The notes beneath the pieces were generated by a model, which was given only the letters and a program-made list of their open reading frames with translations, was not told the DNA's origin and searched no databases. DNA of 64,000 nt from Phycisphaeraceae bacterium (lineage in GTDB: Bacteria; Planctomycetota; Phycisphaerae; Phycisphaerales; UBA1924). Shown piece by piece: positions 3,432 to 47,585 of this stretch; within the stretch, counting starts at the first letter, position 1, and each line of letters opens with the position of its first letter. Location: contig JAJTHN010000030.1 in the NCBI GenBank assembly GCA_021297895.1, positions 1 through 64,000 on the forward strand, given 5' to 3'. Both the position numbers and the translations under genes were made by a program.

Positions 3432-5822
3432 TTACGGCCGACCGGGCATTCCTGGCAGCCGCGGCATGCCCGGAAGCCCCGGCATTCCGTCGGCCGGTGC
3501 CTGCGCCGGTGCGGAGGGGCCGGTGCCAGCGGGGTCGATGTTCACCTTGACGATGCGACCCTTGTTCATGCGCTTGACCGAGAGCTTGAACTCACCGCCA
3601 GCCTTGATCGCCGCCTCGAATTCCTTGACGTTGGCGACAGGAGCGTCATTGACGGAGGTGATGATCTCCATCGGCCGCAGGCCCGCGACGGCGGCCTTGG
3701 AGCCCGACTCGACCTTGGACACGATGATGCCGCCCTCGCTGGCGGGGATCTGGAAGTAACGGCGGACTTCGTAGGTCAAGTCGCGAGTGGTGGCGCCGAG
3801 TTCTTCGCTCTTGAGGCGAGGGGCGGAGTTGAAGTGGGCCGGACCCTGGGTGACGGTCATGGGAACACGGACAGTTTCGCCGTTGCGGAGCAGTTCTACT
3901 TCGAAGCGTGTTCCGAAGCCGACCTCGGTCAGGGCCATCGTGATGAACGTCTCGGCCGAGCCCCAGGGCTGGGGCAACTGGTCGAAGTACTCGCTGGGCA
4001 TGCTCTCGAGCATGGCCCAGTACTCGTCCATCATGCCGCCCATGCCGCCGTCCTCGGCCACGACCTCGAGCGGCTTGGGCTGCTTGTCGATGTGCAGACG
4101 CAGCAGGATGTCGCCGTCTTTGAGCCCCGCCGCGGCGGCGGGGGAACCCTCGTAGATGTGCGTGATGAAGCCGCCGATGCGTCCGCCCTTGGTCTGCTTG
4201 AGGCACTGGTTCGCTCGGGCCAAGTCCGGCGTCATGCCCTGCAGTTCGACACCGAGCCAGGCGATGCGGTTCTCTTCCGCCTCGCTCAGCGGTCGGTTGT
4301 CGGTGTCGAAAGCGTCGCCGCCGCGGGCGATCTCGGCGCGGACGAGCGCGGCGGGAATGCTGGCTTCGGCGGCGTAGTAGCTCCAGCCGCTGTCGCGTCC
4401 CGACGCGACGATCTTCTGGCGGCGCGTCAGAGGCAGCGCAAAGAGCGACATGTCGGTGGTGAAGTAGAAGTTTGAGTACGTGCCGCTCTCCCAAGACGAA
4501 GAGCCGGAGTACATCGGCAGGATCGGCAGAACCGTGTCCTTGTGCGAGCGGGCGAGGCCCATGACACGGTCCTGGTCAAGATACGCAACGCGGGTGTCCT
4601 CGTGCATCGTGACCGCGGCACGAAGGAGAAGATCATTGCGGAACGAAAGCACCGGCTCCGAGGAAATCGCCGGGGCCGACGGCGCGGGCGCTTCGAGCGT
4701 CGCGACAAAGGCGTTCCAGTCGCGGAGCGAGCCGGAGAAGCTCGCCGGTGTCGAGTTGCCGTCGGGCCAGAAGACGCGGACACGCTCGAGCCGCGCGGTG
4801 CGCTTGGCGCCGAAGCTCGCCAGCACGAGGACCGTCCGGTTGTCCAGCACGACACCCAGCGTGTTGACCTCGGTGCTCGACTCGTCCTCGTCGCCACGAC
4901 CACCGAAGGACATGGCGAACGGAGATCGGTAGCGGAAGCCGGAGCCGTCCGAGGCGTCGTCGCTCCGCGGCGAGCGGAAGTTGATCATGATGCGAACGAT
5001 CGATGAATCCGAGGTCGCATCGAGACCCTTGAGCATCGCGTCCATCGCGGGTGCCTCGATGAGGTCCCACGCGTCCGGCGCCGATCGCCACGAACCGTCC
5101 GCGGGCAGGTCGGTGCCATCGAGCAGGCCAACGGCCGCGCCCGTGCGATCGACCGCAACGCCGAAGATTGCCGAGGACGTCGTGCGGCGACCATCTTCCC
5201 ACGTATTGGCGCTGCCGCCCATGGGCGAAACGGTCGTGACCCACTGCGTGTCGAACCGCCCGGCGGTCACGGCGAAGTACGGTCCGGGCTTCTGCGGCTC
5301 GAACTTCAGGGGTGTTGCGCCCGCAAGCGGCTGGGCAAGATCGATGAAGTACCCGCGGCGCGACTTGGCCCACGCGCCGGGACGCGCTTCGACCACCTGA
5401 TCCTTGAATCGGACCTTCAGCGACTTGATGAACCGGGGGTGAAGATCGATCGTCTCGGCGTACACGCGCGTCGGCGAGACAAGGTATCCCGTGAGCACCG
5501 CGGGCCGCTCCTGAGCCGTCAGCGTCACCCAGTTGAAGTCATCCGGAACACCGGGCATACCGCCGTCAGCGAAGCGCCAACGGGACGACCAGCCCATGCG
5601 CGAGTCGCCCGCGGGCGGTTCGCCCTTGTCGTACTGCGGCGTGACCTCGATCTGAACAATCGCGTTGTTGACCGTCGCGGTAATCGCCGTGATTTCCGTG
5701 TCGCTTAGGCGAGCGTGCGTGCCCGGCGGAGCTGCCGCGTCGGGCGCGGCGATGGCGGTTGCCAGACCCGCGGACGAAACCAGAAGACCGATCGCGCAGA
5801 ACCTGAACGTGCGATTCAACAT
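3432..5822 (-). CDS. Exported PDZ protein, apparently protease-dead HtrA relative
   Basis: 796 residues; the start at 5822 follows AGGGGAA and gives a signal peptide (residues 1-25). Residues about 50-240 align by eye with the trypsin-like fold of HtrA proteins (VLTGYLVSPTRVY where HtrA has GSGVLISATGEVL; YFIDLA where it has TDLALL). The catalytic His-containing WHV and the GNSGG nucleophile motif are missing. A second similar degenerate block (LGVVLDNRTVLVLASF, about residue 320 on) follows. Two PDZ domains close the protein: WLGVELQGMTPDL...GSPAAAAGLKDGD and GIIVSKVESGSKAAVAGLRP. The last 30 residues are a Pro/Gly/Met repeat. The downstream neighbour of an active HtrA gene; a scaffold or adaptor role in the periplasm is inferred. 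Confidence 0.75.
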   Translation of the reverse strand: MLNRTFRFCAIGLLVSSAGLATAIAAPDAAAPPGTHARLSDTEITAITATVNNAIVQIEVTPQYDKGEPPAGDSRMGWSSRWRFADGGMPGVPDDFNWVTLTAQERPAVLTGYLVSPTRVYAETIDLHPRFIKSLKVRFKDQVVEARPGAWAKSRRGYFIDLAQPLAGATPLKFEPQKPGPYFAVTAGRFDTQWVTTVSPMGGSANTWEDGRRTTSSAIFGVAVDRTGAAVGLLDGTDLPADGSWRSAPDAWDLIEAPAMDAMLKGLDATSDSSIVRIMINFRSPRSDDASDGSGFRYRSPFAMSFGGRGDEDESSTEVNTLGVVLDNRTVLVLASFGAKRTARLERVRVFWPDGNSTPASFSGSLRDWNAFVATLEAPAPSAPAISSEPVLSFRNDLLLRAAVTMHEDTRVAYLDQDRVMGLARSHKDTVLPILPMYSGSSSWESGTYSNFYFTTDMSLFALPLTRRQKIVASGRDSGWSYYAAEASIPAALVRAEIARGGDAFDTDNRPLSEAEENRIAWLGVELQGMTPDLARANQCLKQTKGGRIGGFITHIYEGSPAAAAGLKDGDILLRLHIDKQPKPLEVVAEDGGMGGMMDEYWAMLESMPSEYFDQLPQPWGSAETFITMALTEVGFGTRFEVELLRNGETVRVPMTVTQGPAHFNSAPRLKSEELGATTRDLTYEVRRYFQIPASEGGIIVSKVESGSKAAVAGLRPMEIITSVNDAPVANVKEFEAAIKAGGEFKLSVKRMNKGRIVKVNIDPAGTGPSAPAQAPADGMPGLPGMPRLPGMPGRP

Positions 5823-5952
5823 GAAGCATTCCCCTGTGTGAAGTCGATTCGACGATGGTGAACGGATGGCAGGTGCCTGGGCGGCACGCCGTCGGAAACG
5901 CTGATGCGAGGGACGCCGCGCCGGGGTCGACGCGAGGCGAACGAGTACGAGC

Positions 5953-7353
5953 TCACTCCTTCGCGTAATCGCGCTGAAGGTCAAGAACAACCTGACGCTG
6001 GAGGCCGGCACGGAGCACCGTCAGGACGATGCGGGGCCTCGTCTCGATGGCCTCGATCGTGGCTTTGTGCCTGGCCTCAACGTCGGCAAGAGTCATGACG
6101 TCGGTCCCGTCGACCTTCAGGATGATGTCGCCGCTTCGCAGGCCCGCGTTGGCGGCGTTTCCGGGCCACTTCACCGCGTGCACAAAGACACCCTTGCTGC
6201 GGTAAAAGTGGACATCCGGATTCTCGAACTGGTTGATCTCCTTGACCGTCAGGTCCCAACGCTTGCAGGCGAGCTCCTTGCCCTCGACCGCACCCTTTTC
6301 TCGCGGGCGGATGCTGACCTGCATGTCCTTGTCGCCGCGGCGAATCGTGAACGTTGCGTCGGAGTCCTTGGCCAGCAGGCCCAGCGTTCGGTAGACGGCG
6401 GGAAGGTCCTCGCGGGTCAGCCCGTTGAGCGCCTTGCCGTTCACGGCGAGGATGCGATCGCGGGCGAGGATGCCCGCGCTCCGGGCGGGGCTGTCGGGGT
6501 CGGTCTCGGCGACGATGACCCCCTCGGTTCCGTCGAAGTACGTGTCGCGGTCAAAGTCACGCAGCGGCTGGAGCTGAAGGCCGAACCAAGTCCAGTCCAC
6601 GCGGCCGGATCGGCGGAGCTGCTCAACGAGCACCTGCACGATGTCGCTCGGAATTGCAAAACCCATGCCCTCGGCCCAGCCGGACATGCCGCGGGCGTTG
6701 ATGCCGATGACCTGACCGTCGGTGTTGATCAGGGGCCCACCGGAGTTGCCAGGATTGATCGGGGCATCGGTCTGGATCCAATGGCTGTACTCGCTCACGG
6801 ACTCGAGATAGCGGTTGGCGCACGAGACGATACCGATGGACACCGAGCGATTCAGGCCCCATGGCGCGCCCATCGCCATGACAAAGTCACCCTCGCGAAG
6901 GGCGGCGGAGGAGCCGAACGTTGCGAAGGGCAACGGGCCAGTTTTGTCGTCGGTCACAAGCTGAAGCAGCGCCAGATCGGTGTCTTTGTCCGAGCCGACG
7001 ATCTTGGCCCGGAAGGCCCGGCCGTCGCTGAGCAAGCAGCGGACCGACTCGGCCTTGTCGATGACGTGCCAATTGGTGAGCACTTCGCCGGTGGCCGAGA
7101 TCAGCACCCCCGATCCGGAGGATTGCTGAGACTTCTTCTCGCCGAAACTGTTGTCTTCGAACACGACACGGATGTACACAACGGCGGGAAACACGCGGTC
7201 CTTGCCGTCCTGCACGATCTGGCGGAAGTCGGGCCTTGCCTGCATCGCCGCGGGCGGCTGTTGGCCGGCGACCGGTGACATGAGGGGGCTTGCGGGAGCA
7301 CCCATCAATGCAATACCGAGAGTGAGGGAAAGGTACGAACGGTTGGTGGGCAT
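5953..7353 (-). CDS. HtrA/DegP-like serine protease with PDZ domains
   Basis: About 466 residues, exported (hydrophobic N-terminus). The start is ATG at 7353; an ATG two codons upstream at 7359 is also possible. The catalytic triad is intact. Numbered from 7359, His98 is in LTNWHVI, Asp128 in DTDLALL and Ser206 in PGNSGGPL. Two PDZ domains follow, around residues 270-350 (SPARSAGILARDRILAVNG) and 390-450 (NAANAGLRSGDIILKVDG). S1C proteases degrade or refold damaged envelope proteins. The gene lies 130 bp upstream of the protease-dead relative on the same strand, so the two may be expressed together. I leave the symbol open because degP, degQ and degS cannot be told apart here. Confidence 0.92.
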   Translation of the reverse strand: MPTNRSYLSLTLGIALMGAPASPLMSPVAGQQPPAAMQARPDFRQIVQDGKDRVFPAVVYIRVVFEDNSFGEKKSQQSSGSGVLISATGEVLTNWHVIDKAESVRCLLSDGRAFRAKIVGSDKDTDLALLQLVTDDKTGPLPFATFGSSAALREGDFVMAMGAPWGLNRSVSIGIVSCANRYLESVSEYSHWIQTDAPINPGNSGGPLINTDGQVIGINARGMSGWAEGMGFAIPSDIVQVLVEQLRRSGRVDWTWFGLQLQPLRDFDRDTYFDGTEGVIVAETDPDSPARSAGILARDRILAVNGKALNGLTREDLPAVYRTLGLLAKDSDATFTIRRGDKDMQVSIRPREKGAVEGKELACKRWDLTVKEINQFENPDVHFYRSKGVFVHAVKWPGNAANAGLRSGDIILKVDGTDVMTLADVEARHKATIEAIETRPRIVLTVLRAGLQRQVVLDLQRDYAKE

Positions 7354-7359
7354 GAGCAT

Positions 7360-8133: not shown

Positions 8134-9645
8134 GTGCCGGAGCCGCGACTCGTGCGCACCATCGCGATCATCAACCAAAAGGGCGGCTGCGGCAAGACGA
8201 CGACCGCCATCAATCTCGCCGGAGTCTTCGCCAGGCGCGGAGCCCGCGTCCTCCTGGTGGATCTGGACCCGCAAAGCCACTGCGCGGCGGGGCTGGCGAT
8301 TCCTGAGCAGCGCATCGATGTGCAGATCGGCGACGCGATGCTCGCGGTCGCGGAGAAGCCGGACAAGTCCATCGACTGGACGCGCCTGCTCTGGCGTGTG
8401 TCGAGGAATCTCGACCTCGCGCCCAGTTCGGTGCGTCTGGCGGCAATCGAGGCGCCGCGGGCGGGTCTGGCGGGTCAGCCCGACAGTGAGCGAAGGCTGG
8501 ATCAGGTCCTCACCCGGATCGCCGACCAGTACGACCTTTGCCTCATCGACTGCCCGCCTTCGATCGGGCTGCTGACCTACAACGCGCTCGTGGCCGCCAA
8601 CGAGGTGCTGATCCCCGTGGAGACGGGTTTCTTCGCACTTCAGGGTGCGAGCAAGCAGGTGCTCGCGATCAAGAGTCTGTTCAAGCGGTTGAACGTCGCG
8701 CCGACGTATCGGCTCTTTGCCACGCTGCACAACCCCGACAGCACGCTGCAGAACCAGGTGCTCGATGAGTTCCAGAGGCGATTCGGCGATGGGGTGATCC
8801 CGGTAGTCGTGCGGCACGACCCCAAACTCCGCGAGGCCGTGCACTTCGGCCAGCCGATCATCGAGACCGCGCCCGATTCGCAGGGCGCGGCGGACTATGC
8901 GGAGCTTGCGTCCTGGCTGCTGACCAACACCCCGGCGCAGCAGGCCGGCGCGCTGGCGTCGACCATGCCCGGACCGGTGGCCCACGCCGCGGCGGCACGC
9001 GGAATTGCCGAATCGGGCGCGGTGCGGGTGATGCCAAGCGCCACCGATCGCGTGCTCAATACGCCTCACGCCACCGCTGCGGCGCAGCCGGCACCCGGTC
9101 CGCAGCGAGAGGAACCGATGCCGACCACCCGCGCGGCGGATGTGGCCCAGCGGCTCAGCCGCGGGCGGGCCGACGAGGCGATGTCGGCCGCGGCGGCGGA
9201 GCAGGTTCCCGCGTCGGCAGATCTTCTTCCGCGCGGTGCGGTCTTCGAGCCGCGGATGGTGCTCACGCCCGTGCACGAGCCGCGGCCGCTGCTGCGTGGC
9301 GAGGTTTCGAGCGCGGGCCTGCTGGGCATCAAGGTCACGCGTCAGGGTGTGCTGTTCGTGCAGCCCGCATCGCTCGGCTCGCGCGTGAGCATCGCGGGGG
9401 ACTTCAACGGCTGGTCGCCATCGGCGACGACGATGCGGCTCAACCCGACGCTGGGCGTGCTCGAAGCGCTGGTGGCGATCCCCGCGGGAACGTTCCAGTA
9501 CAGGCTGGTCGTTGATGGCCGCTGGTGCGACGACGAGTACAACCCGAGCCTGGCGACGAATCCCTACGGCGAACGGAACAACGTTGTCCACGTTCCGGCG
9601 GGACAGGACTCATCGTTCCTGGAGGCGCTGAACGCGGTAGGCTGA
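8134..9645 (+). CDS. ParA-family ATPase fused to a glycogen-binding (AMPK/CBM48-type) domain
   Basis: 503 residues from a GTG start; a second GTG lies six codons later. Residues 8-260 are a ParA/MinD ATPase: deviant Walker A KGGCGKTTT (16-24), VLLVDLDPQS, and LCLIDCPPSIGLLTYNAL as Walker B. Residues 270-400 are an Ala/Pro-rich linker. Residues 405-487 are a CBM48/AMPK-beta-like beta-sandwich with the GDFNGWS signature (422-428), a Trp-containing YRLVVDGRW motif and an NPYGERNNVV end. ParA proteins position chromosomes, plasmids or protein assemblies; AMPK-type CBMs bind glycogen or act as protein-contact modules. No parB or parS-like repeat follows. A second ParA-like gene begins 22 bp downstream. 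The fusion is clear from the sequence; what it positions is unknown. Confidence 0.88.
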   Translation: MPEPRLVRTIAIINQKGGCGKTTTAINLAGVFARRGARVLLVDLDPQSHCAAGLAIPEQRIDVQIGDAMLAVAEKPDKSIDWTRLLWRVSRNLDLAPSSVRLAAIEAPRAGLAGQPDSERRLDQVLTRIADQYDLCLIDCPPSIGLLTYNALVAANEVLIPVETGFFALQGASKQVLAIKSLFKRLNVAPTYRLFATLHNPDSTLQNQVLDEFQRRFGDGVIPVVVRHDPKLREAVHFGQPIIETAPDSQGAADYAELASWLLTNTPAQQAGALASTMPGPVAHAAAARGIAESGAVRVMPSATDRVLNTPHATAAAQPAPGPQREEPMPTTRAADVAQRLSRGRADEAMSAAAAEQVPASADLLPRGAVFEPRMVLTPVHEPRPLLRGEVSSAGLLGIKVTRQGVLFVQPASLGSRVSIAGDFNGWSPSATTMRLNPTLGVLEALVAIPAGTFQYRLVVDGRWCDDEYNPSLATNPYGERNNVVHVPAGQDSSFLEALNAVG

Positions 9646-9667: not shown

Positions 9668-11515
9668 ATGGATGCGCCCGGCTCCGAGACGACGCTCGGG
9701 GCGCTCCGAGACAGAAACGCGCACAGAGACATGGATGTCCTCATGGTCGCGGACTCAGGAAGTTCATCATCATGGCCGTCGGGCGATCGCAGGGGTGACG
9801 GTGCGGGCGGTCGCCACGGGTCGGGTGCCGATGGGGCGGGTCGCGATGGTGCGCAGGGTGCGATTCCCGATGCCGGCAACGCGGCCCGCGGGTCGGCCGA
9901 GTCCCACGGCGACAGCACGCGTGCCGGTGCGGTCTCGCGGCGGGGGTCGCTGCCGACGATCAACGCCGATGACTTTGATGCGCTGGCGGATTTGTTTCTC
10001 GGCGAGGTGTCCTCGGGCCCTGCCAAGGGATCGCCGAGCCAGACGACGATGCCGACCGGCAGCGCGAACGCAGCGGCCCCGGCGGACCCGGTCGAGCGGT
10101 CGGTCGGCGAAAGTCCGCGGTTGTCCGCCGCGACCGGTCCGGGGGGCGATCGCGGGAGGCTGGAGTTGCTGCTTGTTGGGCACTTGCCCGTGATGACCTC
10201 GGCATGGGTGGGGCAGTTTGTCCGTCAGGAGTCCCAGCCGACGGAGCGGTCGGTGGCCTCGGCGCTGGCGTTCATCCGCATGCACGACGAGCGTCTGCGG
10301 ATCGAGCGGTACGCATCTGCGGTTCGTACGAGGGGCGACATCGCCGACGACGCAAGCGGTGCGGCGATCATGTACGAGCCGGGCGATGAGCCGATCGCGC
10401 TGTGCCTGGCCGAGCCGCGGGTGCTGGTGTGGGCTCAGGGCGCGATCGATGTGCTGGCGGCGCAGCCCGGGCTCTTTGCGCGCGTGCATGTGCTGACGGC
10501 CGGAGACGAGACCGGCGTCGTCAACGCATACCGCACGCTCAAGAGCCTCGTAGATGCGTGGCGGCGGGGCGGGCACCCGGTGGCGACGCAGCCGCGGTTC
10601 GCATTGAGCGTGCTGGGCGTGCCGATGGATCGTGCGCGGGCATCGCACGCGAGGCTGAGCGAGGCGTGCCGATCGTTTCTTGGGCTGGAACTGGAGTTCC
10701 ACGCGAGCATCGAGCGGATCGGCTCGGCGGCGGTGCTGCCGATGCCGCCGCGGGTGGTGTTCGATGAGGAGACCGGCTGGACCGTCGGCGAGGTGATCTC
10801 GGCGGTCGCTCGCCCGGTCGCGATGCCCGACCCGGAGCCCGACGTGAGTCGCGGCGAGCCGGACGCCGCGGTGATCGATGGCGATGAAGGCATCGAAGTC
10901 CTGTCGGATCTCCGTTTGGCCGAGCCGGCGCTCGATGACACCTCGGAGTTTCAGGCCATCAATCCCGGTTTGCCCGGGGCTCCCGATCCGGCCACGGCCG
11001 CGGGCGCGGAGACGACGTTTGCTGCTCAGATCTCCGGCGCGATGGCCCATGGGGCGTCGGCGGCGGGTGCATCGCCGGCATCGGCGGGTGCAAGTGCCGC
11101 GGCGGCGCCCGTGGCCGATGAGAGCGAGAGACCGACGGGGGCAGAACTGGATCTGGCGCACTTCGTCCCCGGGCTTGCGGGAATCGCGGCGCGATGCCCG
11201 TATGCGGAAGAGGTTCAGTTGGCGGTCGATGCGTTGGGGAGGCTGCACCTGCTAGCGCGTGCGGATGATGACGACGCGTCGGCGATCGAGTGGTTGACAG
11301 TCGCCAGCGCGTGGGCGACCGAGCATCTCAAGTTGCTGGGCATGACGCTGCCGACGGCGCAGCGGCTCGATGAATCGCTCCGTCCGACGCTGCACCTTTT
11401 CAGCGATCGCGCCTCGCGTGTTCGCCGGCTGCTTGATACCGACATGCGTGTGCACGTGCTGGCGGATACGAGCCGGGCGGCGCAGGCGGGGCTTGTTGCG
11501 GTGGCGTTGAACTGA
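9668..11515 (+). CDS. Hypothetical protein, Walker-less ParA/FlhG-like partner
   Basis: 615 residues; a later ATG at 9731 is possible because the first 90 residues are low-complexity (Gly, Ser, Asp). From about residue 165 the sequence LELLLVGHLPVMTSAWVGQF sits where a MinD/FlhG protein would have its P-loop, but no GKGGxGKT is present. Residues about 276-360 read GDETGVVNAYRTLKSLVDAW and then RARASHARLSEACRSFLGLE. This resembles the TSITDAYALIK and FL..L.YLG portion of FlhG/MinD. Another Ala-rich linker precedes a C-terminal domain (about 500-615) that I do not recognise. Placed 22 bp after the ParA-CBM gene, it is probably co-transcribed. The ParA-like reading is by eye only. Confidence 0.7.
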   Translation: MDAPGSETTLGALRDRNAHRDMDVLMVADSGSSSSWPSGDRRGDGAGGRHGSGADGAGRDGAQGAIPDAGNAARGSAESHGDSTRAGAVSRRGSLPTINADDFDALADLFLGEVSSGPAKGSPSQTTMPTGSANAAAPADPVERSVGESPRLSAATGPGGDRGRLELLLVGHLPVMTSAWVGQFVRQESQPTERSVASALAFIRMHDERLRIERYASAVRTRGDIADDASGAAIMYEPGDEPIALCLAEPRVLVWAQGAIDVLAAQPGLFARVHVLTAGDETGVVNAYRTLKSLVDAWRRGGHPVATQPRFALSVLGVPMDRARASHARLSEACRSFLGLELEFHASIERIGSAAVLPMPPRVVFDEETGWTVGEVISAVARPVAMPDPEPDVSRGEPDAAVIDGDEGIEVLSDLRLAEPALDDTSEFQAINPGLPGAPDPATAAGAETTFAAQISGAMAHGASAAGASPASAGASAAAAPVADESERPTGAELDLAHFVPGLAGIAARCPYAEEVQLAVDALGRLHLLARADDDDASAIEWLTVASAWATEHLKLLGMTLPTAQRLDESLRPTLHLFSDRASRVRRLLDTDMRVHVLADTSRAAQAGLVAVALN

Positions 11516-33994: not shown

Positions 33995-36688
33995 TCAGCG
34001 TTGTGCGTGGAACGGTTCGCCGGGAATCGCGGCGGCGAACTCGGGCGTTCCCATGTCCCATGTGATAAGCCCGGGCAGGATCGGGCTGACCAGACGATCA
34101 TCCTTGGGCAGCACGCGGACCGCAAAGCCATGCTGGCCGGAGTGCGCCGGGCTGAATACCCCGGCGAAGCGCTGGACGCCGCCGCCCGGGTGCGAGCCGT
34201 TCTGCGTGGCCGTCTCGGCGGTCATTTCGACGGTCTGCGTGTCGACAAGTTCGCCGAGGCTCGTCACACGCCCGTGCAGAAGCTGCACGTGAACGTCCGT
34301 TGCGCTGAGCGTGCCGAGCGCCACGTTGGCAACCACGCGCACTGGCTGTCGAACGCTGACGCTCGAATCCGGCGTGAGTTTGCTCTCGACGCTGACGATG
34401 CGGATGCCCGCCCAGTGCTCGCGCAGCCGGCGGATGTGTGCATCGAGGTCGCGGGCCTCCGCGGCGTTGTTGGCGTTGAGCCGGACGCCCGCGTTGTGCG
34501 CGGGGAAGTAGAACTTCTGGGCGTAGTCCACCAGCATGCGGTGCGTGCTGAATCGCGGCGCGAGCACCTTGATGCACTGCTTCATGCGCTTGACCCATCG
34601 GCGCGGAATGCCGGACGCGTCGCGGTCGTAGAACTCGGGGATGATCTGGCTCTCGAGCACCTGATAGAGCATGCGGCTCTCGATGTCGTCCATCTCGCTG
34701 GCGCGGGCGGGGTCGTAGCTCTCGCCGCGACCGATGCCGAAGCCGACCTCGGGATCGAACGCCTCGGCCCACCAACCGTCGAGGATCGAGCAGTGCAGGT
34801 TGCCGTTCATCGCGGCCTTCATGCCGCTGGTGCCGGAGGCCTCAAGGCCGTGGATCGGCGTGTTGAGCCAGATGTCGCAGCCCTGGGCCATGCGACGGCC
34901 GATCTGGATGTCGTAGTCCTCCAGGAACACGATCGAGTGCTGCACGCCGGTGGTGCGGATGAAGTCGACGATGTCGCGGATAAGCTGCTTTCCGCCTCCG
35001 TCGGCCGGGTGGCTCTTGCCCGCGATGAGGATCTGAACGGGCTTGTCGCCCTTGAGCAGTTTGAGGAGCCGCTCCTTGTCGCGGAACAGCAGCGTGCCGC
35101 GCTTGTAAGTCGCAAAGCGCCGGGCAAAGCCGATGGTCAGCCGCTCGGCGTCGAGCGTGCTGGCGGCACGATCGATCTCCAGAACGCCCGCGCCGCGCGC
35201 GGCCATCTGCTCGCGGATCTTGCGCCTGGCCCACGCGACGACCTGACGTCGGCGATGCTGGTGCGCCGCCCAGAGTTCCTCATCCGGGATCTCATCGATC
35301 GCGCTCCAGCTTGCCGGATCCTGCGGGGCAAAGTGCCAGCGGTCGGAGAGGTATCGGTCGTACAACTGCGTCAGTTCCGGGCTGATCCACGAGCGCGCGT
35401 GCACGCCGTTGGTCACGTGCCCGATCGGCACGTCGTTCTCCGGGGTGCCGGGCCAGATCCCGCGCCACATGCTCCGCGACACGTGGCCGTGCAACTGGCT
35501 CACGCCGTTGCAGAACCGGCTCGTGCGGATCGCCAGCACCGCCATCGAGAAGTGCTCCTTGCGATCGGCCGTGTTCTCGCGGCCGAGCGCCAGCAGCCCC
35601 TCGCCATCGAGCCCCAGCGGGCCGGACATGTGGCTGATGTAGCGCTCGACAAGATCGGGGTGGAACCGGTCGATGCCGGCGGGCACCGGCGTGTGCGTCG
35701 TGAAAACGTGGCTCGCCGCGACCGCCTCGCGGGCCTGGTCGAAGGTCAGATCGGTGCCCTTGCGGACGCGGGCGATCCGCTCCAGCGCCGCGAAGGCCGC
35801 GTGACCCTCGTTGATGTGCACGACGCTCGGATTCTCGCCCAGCGCGGCCAGGGCGCGAACGCCGCCCACGCCGAGGATCAGTTCCTGCTTGATGCGCGTT
35901 TCGGCGTCTCCGCCGTAGAGGTTCGCCGTGATGTCGCGGTCCTCGCGGCTGTTCTCGGGGAGGTTCGTGTCCAGCAGGTACAGCCGGACCTTGCCAACGT
36001 CGCATCGCCAGATGCACGCGGAGACCATGCGACCGGGGAACTCGATCTGCACGATCATCGGCTTGCCGGTGGATGTGTCGGTCACAAGCGTCAGCGGCTG
36101 GTTGGGCGCGTCGACGTCCTTGTACATCTCCTGCTGCCAGCCATCGGAGTTGAGGTACTGATGGAAGTAGCCGCGGCGATAGAGCAGCCCGACGGCCACG
36201 AGCGGGAGCCCGAGTTCCGCGGCGCTCTTGAGGTGATCACCGGCCAGACACCCCAGACCGCCCGAGTAGATCTGGAAGCACTCGGTGATGCCGAACTCCG
36301 CGCAGAAGTAGGCGACCTTCAGCGGCGTGCCGGACTGCGTGACGGCCCCGGCGTTCTCGCCGAACCAGCCGCGAGACTGCATGTGGGCCTGCAACTGCGA
36401 GTGCACCGTGCCGACAAGGTGCAGGAACGAGCGGTCGCTGGCCGCGCGGTCGAGCCGCTCCTGCCCGATGAGTCCGAGCATGCGGACGGGGTTGTGGTGG
36501 CACTGCTCCCAGAGTTCGCGGTCGAGTTTGCTGAACAGGCCGACGGCGTCGATGTTCCAGCACCACCACATGTTCTGAGCGATCGCCAGCAGCGGCTTGA
36601 GCGGCTCGGGCAGGCTGGGCACGACGCGGAGCGTCTGGATTCGGGCCTGGCTTGGGCTGAGTGTCGTGGACTTGTCGGCGTAGGGCAT
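33995..36688 (-). CDS. glgP: Alpha-glucan (glycogen) phosphorylase
   Basis: 897 residues. It releases glucose-1-phosphate from glycogen or maltodextrin using phosphate and pyridoxal phosphate. The N-terminal block (VPSLPEPLKPLLAIAQNMWW) is the domain typical of the GlgP branch that differs from the Escherichia MalP/GlgP type. Active-site motifs are HINEGHAAF, HTPVPAGIDRF, GFARRFATYKRG and EASGTSGMKAAMNG, the last holding the Lys that binds PLP. About 120 residues after the catalytic part form a beta-rich end. No glgA, glgB or glgC is in the window. The ParA fusion at 8134 with a glycogen-binding-type domain is 24 kb away. Confidence 0.95.
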   Translation of the reverse strand: MPYADKSTTLSPSQARIQTLRVVPSLPEPLKPLLAIAQNMWWCWNIDAVGLFSKLDRELWEQCHHNPVRMLGLIGQERLDRAASDRSFLHLVGTVHSQLQAHMQSRGWFGENAGAVTQSGTPLKVAYFCAEFGITECFQIYSGGLGCLAGDHLKSAAELGLPLVAVGLLYRRGYFHQYLNSDGWQQEMYKDVDAPNQPLTLVTDTSTGKPMIVQIEFPGRMVSACIWRCDVGKVRLYLLDTNLPENSREDRDITANLYGGDAETRIKQELILGVGGVRALAALGENPSVVHINEGHAAFAALERIARVRKGTDLTFDQAREAVAASHVFTTHTPVPAGIDRFHPDLVERYISHMSGPLGLDGEGLLALGRENTADRKEHFSMAVLAIRTSRFCNGVSQLHGHVSRSMWRGIWPGTPENDVPIGHVTNGVHARSWISPELTQLYDRYLSDRWHFAPQDPASWSAIDEIPDEELWAAHQHRRRQVVAWARRKIREQMAARGAGVLEIDRAASTLDAERLTIGFARRFATYKRGTLLFRDKERLLKLLKGDKPVQILIAGKSHPADGGGKQLIRDIVDFIRTTGVQHSIVFLEDYDIQIGRRMAQGCDIWLNTPIHGLEASGTSGMKAAMNGNLHCSILDGWWAEAFDPEVGFGIGRGESYDPARASEMDDIESRMLYQVLESQIIPEFYDRDASGIPRRWVKRMKQCIKVLAPRFSTHRMLVDYAQKFYFPAHNAGVRLNANNAAEARDLDAHIRRLREHWAGIRIVSVESKLTPDSSVSVRQPVRVVANVALGTLSATDVHVQLLHGRVTSLGELVDTQTVEMTAETATQNGSHPGGGVQRFAGVFSPAHSGQHGFAVRVLPKDDRLVSPILPGLITWDMGTPEFAAAIPGEPFHAQR

Positions 36689-45390: not shown

Positions 45391-47334
45391 TCAGGCCGCG
45401 ATCGCGGCCTGGTTCTCTGGAGCGGGATCGCTCGAGTCGGAAGGGCTGGCATCTGCCGCGGGTGTCACCTTCATCAGGGCCTCGTGCAGCCACTCGTCGA
45501 GCACCTGCTGCGACTCGGCGGGTATCTGCGTGAAGCGGTACCCCGCGACCGTGCCCAGTCGCGATACGCGCTTGGTCCACTGCACACACCCGCGTACCGC
45601 GGCCGTCCGCCCCGACTGATCGGAGATGACGAACTCGATCTCCGAGCCCAACGCCGGCAGCTCGCGCCGCCCGAGCACGATCCGAGCGCCGCTCGCGGAG
45701 AGGTCCGCGACGGTGCCGAGGTTCGAGTCCAGTCCCGGGATGACGAATCGGTCGAACTCGCGACGCGTGATCTTGTAGCGCTTGACGAACTCGAGGATCT
45801 TCTCGCTCTGGCCGGAGACCTCCGCCGCGGCGAGCATCGACTGATCGCCGTCATTGGTGCTCAGGGTGCAGGCCTGTGTTGCCTCGGTGATTTCATCGCG
45901 GATGCTGTTGATCGCCGACGCCTGCGCGACGGACTTTGCCCGCAGCGCCTCGGTGAGCGTTGCGACGTGGTCGAAGGCGCCGATGATCTGATTGAGCCGG
46001 TCGCTGGCCGATCGTGTCGCATCGGCGCTGGCGTGGGATCGGCTCACCCCTTCGTTGATCGTCTGCACCGTCGAGTCCATCGCGTTGCTGATCGACGAAA
46101 TCGACGCGGAGATCTCGCTGGTGATCGATGTCGTTCGCTCGGCGAGCTTGCGGACTTCATCGGCAACGACCGCGAATCCCCGGCCGTGTGTGCCGGCCCG
46201 GGCCGCCTCGATCGCCGCGTTCAGCGCCAGCAGGTTCGTCTGGTCGGCGATGTCCACGATCGAAGCGAGCAGGGACTTGATGCTCTCGGTGTGCTCCTGA
46301 AGTTTCTTCACGCGGTCGGCAGCGTCGGCGATCTGGTGGCTGGTCTCGGCGACGCCCCCGGTCACCAGGGTCAGTGCCTCAGTCCCCGCCTTCGCATCGT
46401 CGCGGGCCTTCTGGGCCTCGGTGCTCATGTGCACGACGCTCTCGGAAACGTCCTGGGCGCAGCTGTTCACCTCGTCCATCGCCGAGGAGACGATCTGCAG
46501 CCGGTTCTGCTGCTCAAAGAGCATGCCGCTGAGCCTGTTGGTCGTGTCGGCGATCATCGCGCCGGCCGCCGCGACGTTCACGCCGCGTGTGCCTAGTTCG
46601 GTCGCGAATTCGCGAGTCCGATCGTTGATGTTCCGGAGCGACTCGGCGAGCCTGGAGAGTTCGTCGTTCGCCGCGTCGCGCTCCTCGATGATGAACAGAT
46701 TGCCCTTGGCGATCTGATCGGCCATGCGGACCATTTTGCGCACGCGCACGTTGATCGACCGAACGAGGAGCCAGCCCGCCAGCAGCGATGTCAGGCCCAT
46801 GACGCCCGCGCCCGCGTAGGGCGCCGTCCACACCCGTTGCTCCTGCACGCTCACGGACCCGAGCCTCGTCATGATCATGTCTTCGATTGTGACCAGCCCC
46901 GCGGCGGAGTTCTCCGCGAGCACATTCAGCGGACCGGACTCCAGCGCGCCGACGCCCCGGAGCAGCGCCGTGTGCTCGTTCTGCCAGGTTCCCAGCGAGT
47001 CGAGCGCCGCGACCGACGCGTACTGCTCGCTGTCTCGGATCGACTCGAGGATCTCTCCGCTCCGAAAAAGAGCCGCGTCCAGCTCGGCGAGAGCCGCTCG
47101 GGTGTCGGCGGGTATCTCTCCGCTCGACGCCGACGCGGCCTTCCGCGTAAGGACAGCCGCGGTTCGATGAACGTTCGCCACCTGCACCTTCAGCGGCAGC
47201 AGCGTGTTGGCGATCGAGGCGCGCTCGGCACTCAGTTGATGGACCGCGGCTCCAATCAGCGTCCAAGCTGCCAGTGCCGTCAACGACACGACGCCGAGCG
47301 TCGCGGCGATCTTTGTTCCGAGTGTGAGTTTCAT
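45391..47334 (-). CDS. Methyl-accepting chemotaxis protein with C-terminal PilZ domain
   Basis: 647 residues. Transmembrane helices lie at about 8-30 and 180-200 and bracket a helical periplasmic sensor region. A HAMP domain follows ([20 protein letters not shown]). The signalling hairpin is complete ([38 protein letters not shown]). After it comes a PilZ domain: [10 protein letters not shown] as the RxxxR-type element and DLSASGARI as the (D/N)xSxxG element. PilZ binds cyclic-di-GMP, so the receptor probably couples c-di-GMP to the CheA pathway. No che genes are here. A 20-bp palindrome covers the stop codon. Confidence 0.9.
45392..45411. repeat. Perfect 20-bp palindrome with GCGATCGC core
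   Basis: caggccgcgatcgcggcctg reads the same on both strands. It covers the end of the chemoreceptor gene and is 13 bp after the typA stop. It could form a hairpin in either transcript, but no T-tract follows on either side. Confidence 0.9.
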
Positions 47335-47585
47335 GCGTGTCCGCGGATTGCCCGCGCTTCTCAAGCTCCGGATTCATCGCCCAACTCGGGTTGCCGCTGT
47401 GCCGCCGCGGCGTGGGGTAACCCCGAATGCACTTCCAGAGGTGGGTGGCGGAGGCGAAAGTTGGGCCCTTTGAGTTAAGCATGATCATGTATCGTCGCCC
47501 AATCTCGGTCCTTGCCCTTGCCGGCTCCGATGGACTCTCAACGCGGCTATGCCTATAAGTCCCTCCCGCTGCAACCCGGGCTATC

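Follow-up and report, generated by a model that had tools for sequence, protein, structure and literature searches.

The ParA gene of the 64,000-nucleotide stretch of Phycisphaeraceae DNA analysed here (the window), the product of which ends in a glycogen-binding-type domain, appears to be one half of a two-gene module. We suggest, with a probability of roughly 0.45, that this gene and its downstream neighbour constitute a ParA/pseudo-MinD spatial module of the Phycisphaerae, in which the CBM serves as an additional tether to, or sensor of, alpha-glucan. The first-pass annotation had noted the fusion on its own. The fusion itself stands, but a conserved partner gene at 9668-11515 was overlooked, and with this neighbour the lone fusion becomes a two-gene module.

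The fusion is encoded in an intact open reading frame at 8134-9645 (+; 503 aa). While its existence and end are as first annotated, translation probably starts at the GTG at 8152 rather than that at 8134, giving a gene of 8152-9645 (497 aa), since this is where the proteins of relatives start, with (V/M/L)-(R/H)-x-(I/V/F) followed by NQKGG, and a GGAG is found upstream of it at 8139-8142. In the AlphaFold model, a confident ParA part (~residues 1-262) is followed by a mostly disordered linker containing a helix (residues 327-348) and by a confident beta-sandwich. The joining of a ParA and a glycogen-binding-type domain in one protein is borne out by the profile matches (AAA_31: residues 8-187; e-value: 1.3e-44; PF16561: 42.0 bits), and the motifs named at first reading, GDFNGW (9397-9414) and VDGRW (9511-9525), are both present, as are intact ParA ATPase motifs.

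The ParA/Soj ATPase domain (residues 1-262; 8152-8937, +) contains the deviant Walker A KGGCGKTT (8179-8202, +), with the K-G-G-x-G-K-T P-loop, its signature lysine and the Walker A' and Walker B aspartates, and residues K10, G11, G12, G14, K15, T16, D37, D39 and D133 are invariant in 29/29 ParA rows. This part of the model aligns with Soj/ParA structures (Z 34-37; rmsd 1.7-1.9 over 241-250 residues) and less closely with the McdA fold (Z 30). The fusion shares its fold and ATPase motifs with the Soj/ParA partition ATPases, with 31-37% identity across the top ten Foldseek alignments, but differs from them in its C-terminal glucan-binding-type domain, in the lack of an adjoining ParB and in the partial retention of two positions which we take to be the Soj DNA-binding arginines. 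The first of these is R in 5/29 rows and the second K/R in 20/29, making nucleoid binding by the fusion doubtful. None of the NCBIfam partition-family cut-offs is reached, and the score against the cellulose-associated ParA BcsQ (TIGR03371; 100 bits) falls below its cut-off of 157.85.

The partner gene (9668-11515, +; 615 aa) is located 22 nt after the fusion gene, and its product has no match in Pfam, NCBIfam or PHROGs. The alignment and model place a short helix, DALADLFLGE (9977-10006, +), in an otherwise disordered N-terminus. The middle domain (residues 161-361; 10148-10750, +) resembles FlhG (VIA against 4rz3; Z 11.7; rmsd 3.4; 160 aligned), and partner profile A2 matches FleN (e-value: 0.006); no alignment was obtained between profiles A1 and A2. 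At the place of the Walker A motif stands GHLPV (10178-10192, +), and the G, L and P of this G-x-L-P are invariant in 21/21 aligned rows. A looser scan of 53 partner frames from the named loci, which did not pick up G-x-L-P in 11 and struck the wrong place in a few, yielded GK[ST] in one. Model and alignment together indicate that the middle domain is a MinD/FlhG fold without a Walker A, and as such a predicted pseudo-ATPase. It has the fold of MinD, FlhG and FleN in common with these proteins, from which the partner differs in lacking a Walker A, in its long and disordered N-terminus and in an additional domain at the C-terminus. The latter is modelled as an alpha/beta domain (11117-11512, +), whose similarity to EndoMS (5gke_A; Z 7.7) does not rise above the noise level given for the tool.

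In 20/20 loci fetched from among 60 relatives, the partner lies behind the fusion gene in the same orientation, with gaps of -4 to 131 nt; ClpX, the other neighbour of the fusion in the window, is present in 8/20 of them. The partner furthermore adjoins ParA in 53 of the best 80 named loci and is absent beside it in 25 of the 78 with full sequence, although at least three of these 25 (L104, L110 and L118) have no more than 750 bases of contig left. Nine partnerless loci that were followed up have differing next genes, so that the pairing is not obligatory. Across the neighbourhoods of 95 loci, no family besides the partner occurs in more than 28, and none of the ten annotated neighbour families is a glycogen gene. 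A 3-dehydroquinate synthase upstream of the fusion (L065:4255-5850, +) belongs to a family found in 28/95 loci, on the same strand in 24/28. Two adjoining PDZ proteins, of which one also has a trypsin-like domain, are encoded near the module in the window (3432-6011 and 5953-7359, -) and have no match within the 20 fetched relative loci. The window also encodes, at 45391-47364 (-), a single protein with a methyl-accepting chemotaxis signalling domain and a PilZ domain.

The linker helix (residues 327-348; 9130-9195, +) begins RAADVAQRLSRGR, and its R327 is identical in 29/29 rows. The linker motif is found in 46/53 loci with the partner against 1/25 without it, where shuffled linkers would give 1.5 and 0.6, and in 11/12 CBM-less loci; the association between motif and partner rests on two independent contrasts on the ParA tree and for this reason cannot reach significance. 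Four partnerless loci (L082, L086, L087 and L091) have in common an alternative linker stretch resembling FVNSLADQLESISATADEL, which is possibly the site for a different partner.

The C-terminal AMPK-type CBM48 beta-sandwich (9322-9600, +; pLDDT ~95) matches AMPK1_CBM (PF16561) at residues 415-489 (e-value: 1.1e-10; cut-off: 26.8 bits), while its score against the CBM_48 profile (19.7 bits) is under the cut-off of 22.4. A 72-residue C-terminal piece on its own matches AMPK beta-2 and beta-1 structures (e-values: 1.2e-7 to 2.4e-6). At the AMPK positions W100, K126, W133 and N150, presumably those that contact glucan, the window CBM has W, R, W and N. Among 95 AMPK-aligned CBM rows, which include at least three genes twice (L055/L024, L056/L030 and L075/L012), W100 is retained in 92, K/R126 in 90, W133 in 84 and N150 in 78, as are F97 (92/95), N98 (92/95), Y125 (95/95) and D136 (95/95). 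The AMPK-type assignment made from the sequence has consequently held on both counts on which it could have failed, the profile score and the ligand residues across homologues, and these are also what the fusion shares with the AMPK beta glycogen-binding domain. It departs from the latter at the L146 position, which is F or Y in 75/95 rows, and at T148, which is E in 60/95, and in that the CBM belongs to a kinase subunit in AMPK and is joined to ParA here. A stand-alone CBM of 122 aa, encoded directly after a GT4 and then a GH57 gene in the genome of L099, shares 62% identity with the nearest ParA CBM (L092), 39% with that of the window and 32-33% with AMPK, and this relative behind a GT4-GH57 pair supports a predicted alpha-glucan link for this CBM subfamily. 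At L134:2148-5064, genes for a GT4, a GH57 and a small stand-alone AMPK-type CBM are closely spaced, with a histidine kinase and a response regulator before them, a possible alpha-glucan operon.

The genome of the window encodes an alpha-glucan phosphorylase (DUF3417 + Phosphorylase; 33995-36688, -), located in the window ~25 kb from the fusion, as well as a GH57, a CBM48-bearing GH13 and a GT4 that shows a partial GT5-type match, while no GlgA over the cut-off was found in it. Across the relatives, GlgA exceeds the cut-off in 1/80 genomes, though just 7/14 controls passed it, and GlgB in 13/79; phosphorylase is matched in 63/79 genomes and GH57 in 64/79 (e-value < 1e-30). A reading of the GlgA scarcity as absence of glycogen was rejected, since phosphorylase and GH57 are common and GT4 genes in clusters with GH57 are described for Archaea in passages of PMC11046441. 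Predicted glycogen breakdown is also mentioned in part of a genomic account of the Phycisphaerae (PMC11266412). It is rather unlikely that the CBM48 fold has been reused here as a protein-binding or structural module that binds no glucan. The scarcity of GlgA and the frequent glutamate at the T148 position would fit such reuse, as would L114 and L133, where W133 and N150 are gone and the domain stays, but both tryptophans, the basic residue and N150 are retained in most rows and a close relative is found within an alpha-glucan gene cluster.

ParA is matched in 61/61 genomes of the family and order, that of the window included, with a best e-value of ~1e-63 or lower in 60 and of 2.9e-38 in G026. 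The 80 named loci are the best matches and hence a biased sample, in which 66 have the CBM on ParA, 12 lack it and two are cut by contig ends (L101 and L106). They are mostly labelled Phycisphaerae, Phycisphaerales, Phycisphaeraceae, Sedimentisphaerales or Planctomycetota, with a few Planctomycetaceae, Planctomycetia and 'bacterium', and one labelled Cyanobacteria (L081) comes from genome G033, a member of the same family as the window. Rows for L022, L101 and L106 (contig ends) and for G061 (same genome as G033) were dropped. In a draw of 119 Planctomycetota genomes, the fusion is present in 7/7 of the window's class and in 1/112 others, and none of the other CBM matches (e-value <= 1e-8) lies beside a listed ParA match. 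The exception outside the class, G166, has 5% contamination listed, and both transfer and a mis-binned contig are possible for its fusion (L144:1110-2336, -; 409-aa frame). The phylogenetic spread shows that the ParA-CBM fusion marks the Phycisphaerae (Planctomycetota). Partner matches with e-values < 1e-80 occur in 5/119 genomes of the same draw, each belonging to the window's order. Five genomes from outside the class have weak matches (4e-8 to 4e-4), to frames of 285-394 aa. Within the class the partner is present in 6/7 genomes, directly behind the fusion in G165, and was not found in G041.

On a quick ParA tree of 88 labelled rows (76 with the CBM), with SH-aLRT support only and a long outgroup branch, the CBM label needs four changes, a count that cannot separate gain from loss. 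As the CBM is present on every deep branch, the changes are read as losses, such that the CBM would be ancestral on ParA and have been lost about four times. The partner is kept in 12/12 CBM-less loci with full sequence. ParA and partner are the longest-retained core in the main clade, and the partnerless clades retain the CBM instead. The glucan domain is, judged from these sequences, old but dispensable. We therefore assign it the part of tether or sensor in a positioning module whose main job is a different one, and consider it more likely to be such an addition than the core function.

This bears on the proposal of the first-pass annotation that the fusion positions glycogen granules, for which an alpha-glucan link is supported but which is weakened as a purpose by the approximately four CBM losses and by the lack of any tracking of alpha-glucan enzymes. 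Phosphorylase is present in 50/62 CBM-plus against 12/16 CBM-less genomes (p 0.73) and GH57 in 51/62 against 12/16 (p 0.50), with no association for GlgB (p 0.28) or branching-like GH13 (p 0.09, with the trend reversed), in a comparison of low power owing to the few CBM losses, for which presence lists were compiled by hand and G026 was taken out of the 63 CBM-plus genomes for want of a clear orthologue. Two CBM-plus genomes, G077 and G089, have no phosphorylase, GH57 or branching-like GH13 match in these searches. Glycogen would be the cargo if ParA rode the nucleoid while the CBM held granules, spacing them and sharing them between daughters as McdA does with carboxysomes. The retained ligand positions, the phosphorylase, GH57, GH13 and GT4 of the genome and a ParA fold near Soj and, less so, McdA make this conceivable; however, cargos of ParA proteins are usually held through a separate adaptor, the Soj arginines are kept in part only, and ATPase and partner persist where the CBM is lost. 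We regard this reading as unlikely, and if glycogen is a cargo it is probably not the only one.

That no parB adjoins the fusion gene proved correct, as the ParB_N matches of the window's genome, which are weak (best e-value: 1.6e-8), lie on contigs C26 and C27 and the fusion on C52. ParB_N proteins are found in 10/10 genomes. Where one shares a contig with the fusion gene (which is CBM-less in G024), the distance is no less than 35 kb, and the ParABS hallmark of a parB beside parA is seen in none of the ten. It is improbable that the fusion is the chromosomal ParA working with such a distant ParB, with CBM and partner as regulators, as its nearest structures being Soj might suggest, given that a second ParA is encoded in the window's genome (C17:18184-19257) and in many relatives and that the NCBIfam partition cut-offs are not reached.

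In the favoured two-gene module, the ParA half, with its ATPase motifs and Soj fold, would act as an ATP-dependent dimerising switch, and the pseudo-ATPase encoded next to it in most lineages, if not all, may be its cognate partner. The acidic DALADLFLGE helix of the partner could contact the arginine-bearing helix in the ParA linker. The CBM48, from its fold and ligand residues, would bind alpha-glucan and tether the ATPase to glycogen; alternatively, glucan status may bias the ATPase cycle through it. The glucan arm would in either case be an added input; lineages without the CBM retain ATPase and partner. McdA/McdB and PomXYZ likewise combine a ParA-type ATPase with a cognate partner, which in passages of PMC7993993 activates via a basic N-terminal peptide, whereas here the N-terminal helix of the partner is acidic and the basic helix is on ParA itself.

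A candidate role for the module is the positioning of the division site or nucleoid in cells without FtsZ. A search for FtsZ was positive in 0/10 genomes and in 13/14 controls, which makes a division role attractive and agrees with published accounts as far as excerpts of these extend (PMC6952346 and PMC5147048); how the Phycisphaerae divide without FtsZ, in a manner resembling binary fission, is presented as an open question in part of the former. Quite unlikely as a complete scheme is that ParA and pseudo-MinD place the division site or nucleoid in these FtsZ-less bacteria, with pseudo-MinD replacing ParB or MinE and the glycogen-binding domain letting the mass or position of the storage polymer steer the process. 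If true, it would connect the carbon reserve of the cell directly, at the molecular level, to the geometry of its cell cycle.

ATPases of the ParA/MinD type place many cargos. No paper on a ParA-CBM48 fusion, or on a ParA/MinD ATPase with its own polysaccharide-binding domain, was among the top-ranked open-access matches, and no such fusion is mentioned in the excerpted text of three ParA background papers (PMC10241942, PMC7229837 and PMC8262871). In E. coli, glycogen is reported (PMC12706056) to shift nucleoids and division sites by phase separation. A conserved ParA with predicted glucan binding and a dedicated partner would offer a gene pair with which a link between glycogen and the nucleoid or division may be tested in the Phycisphaerae.
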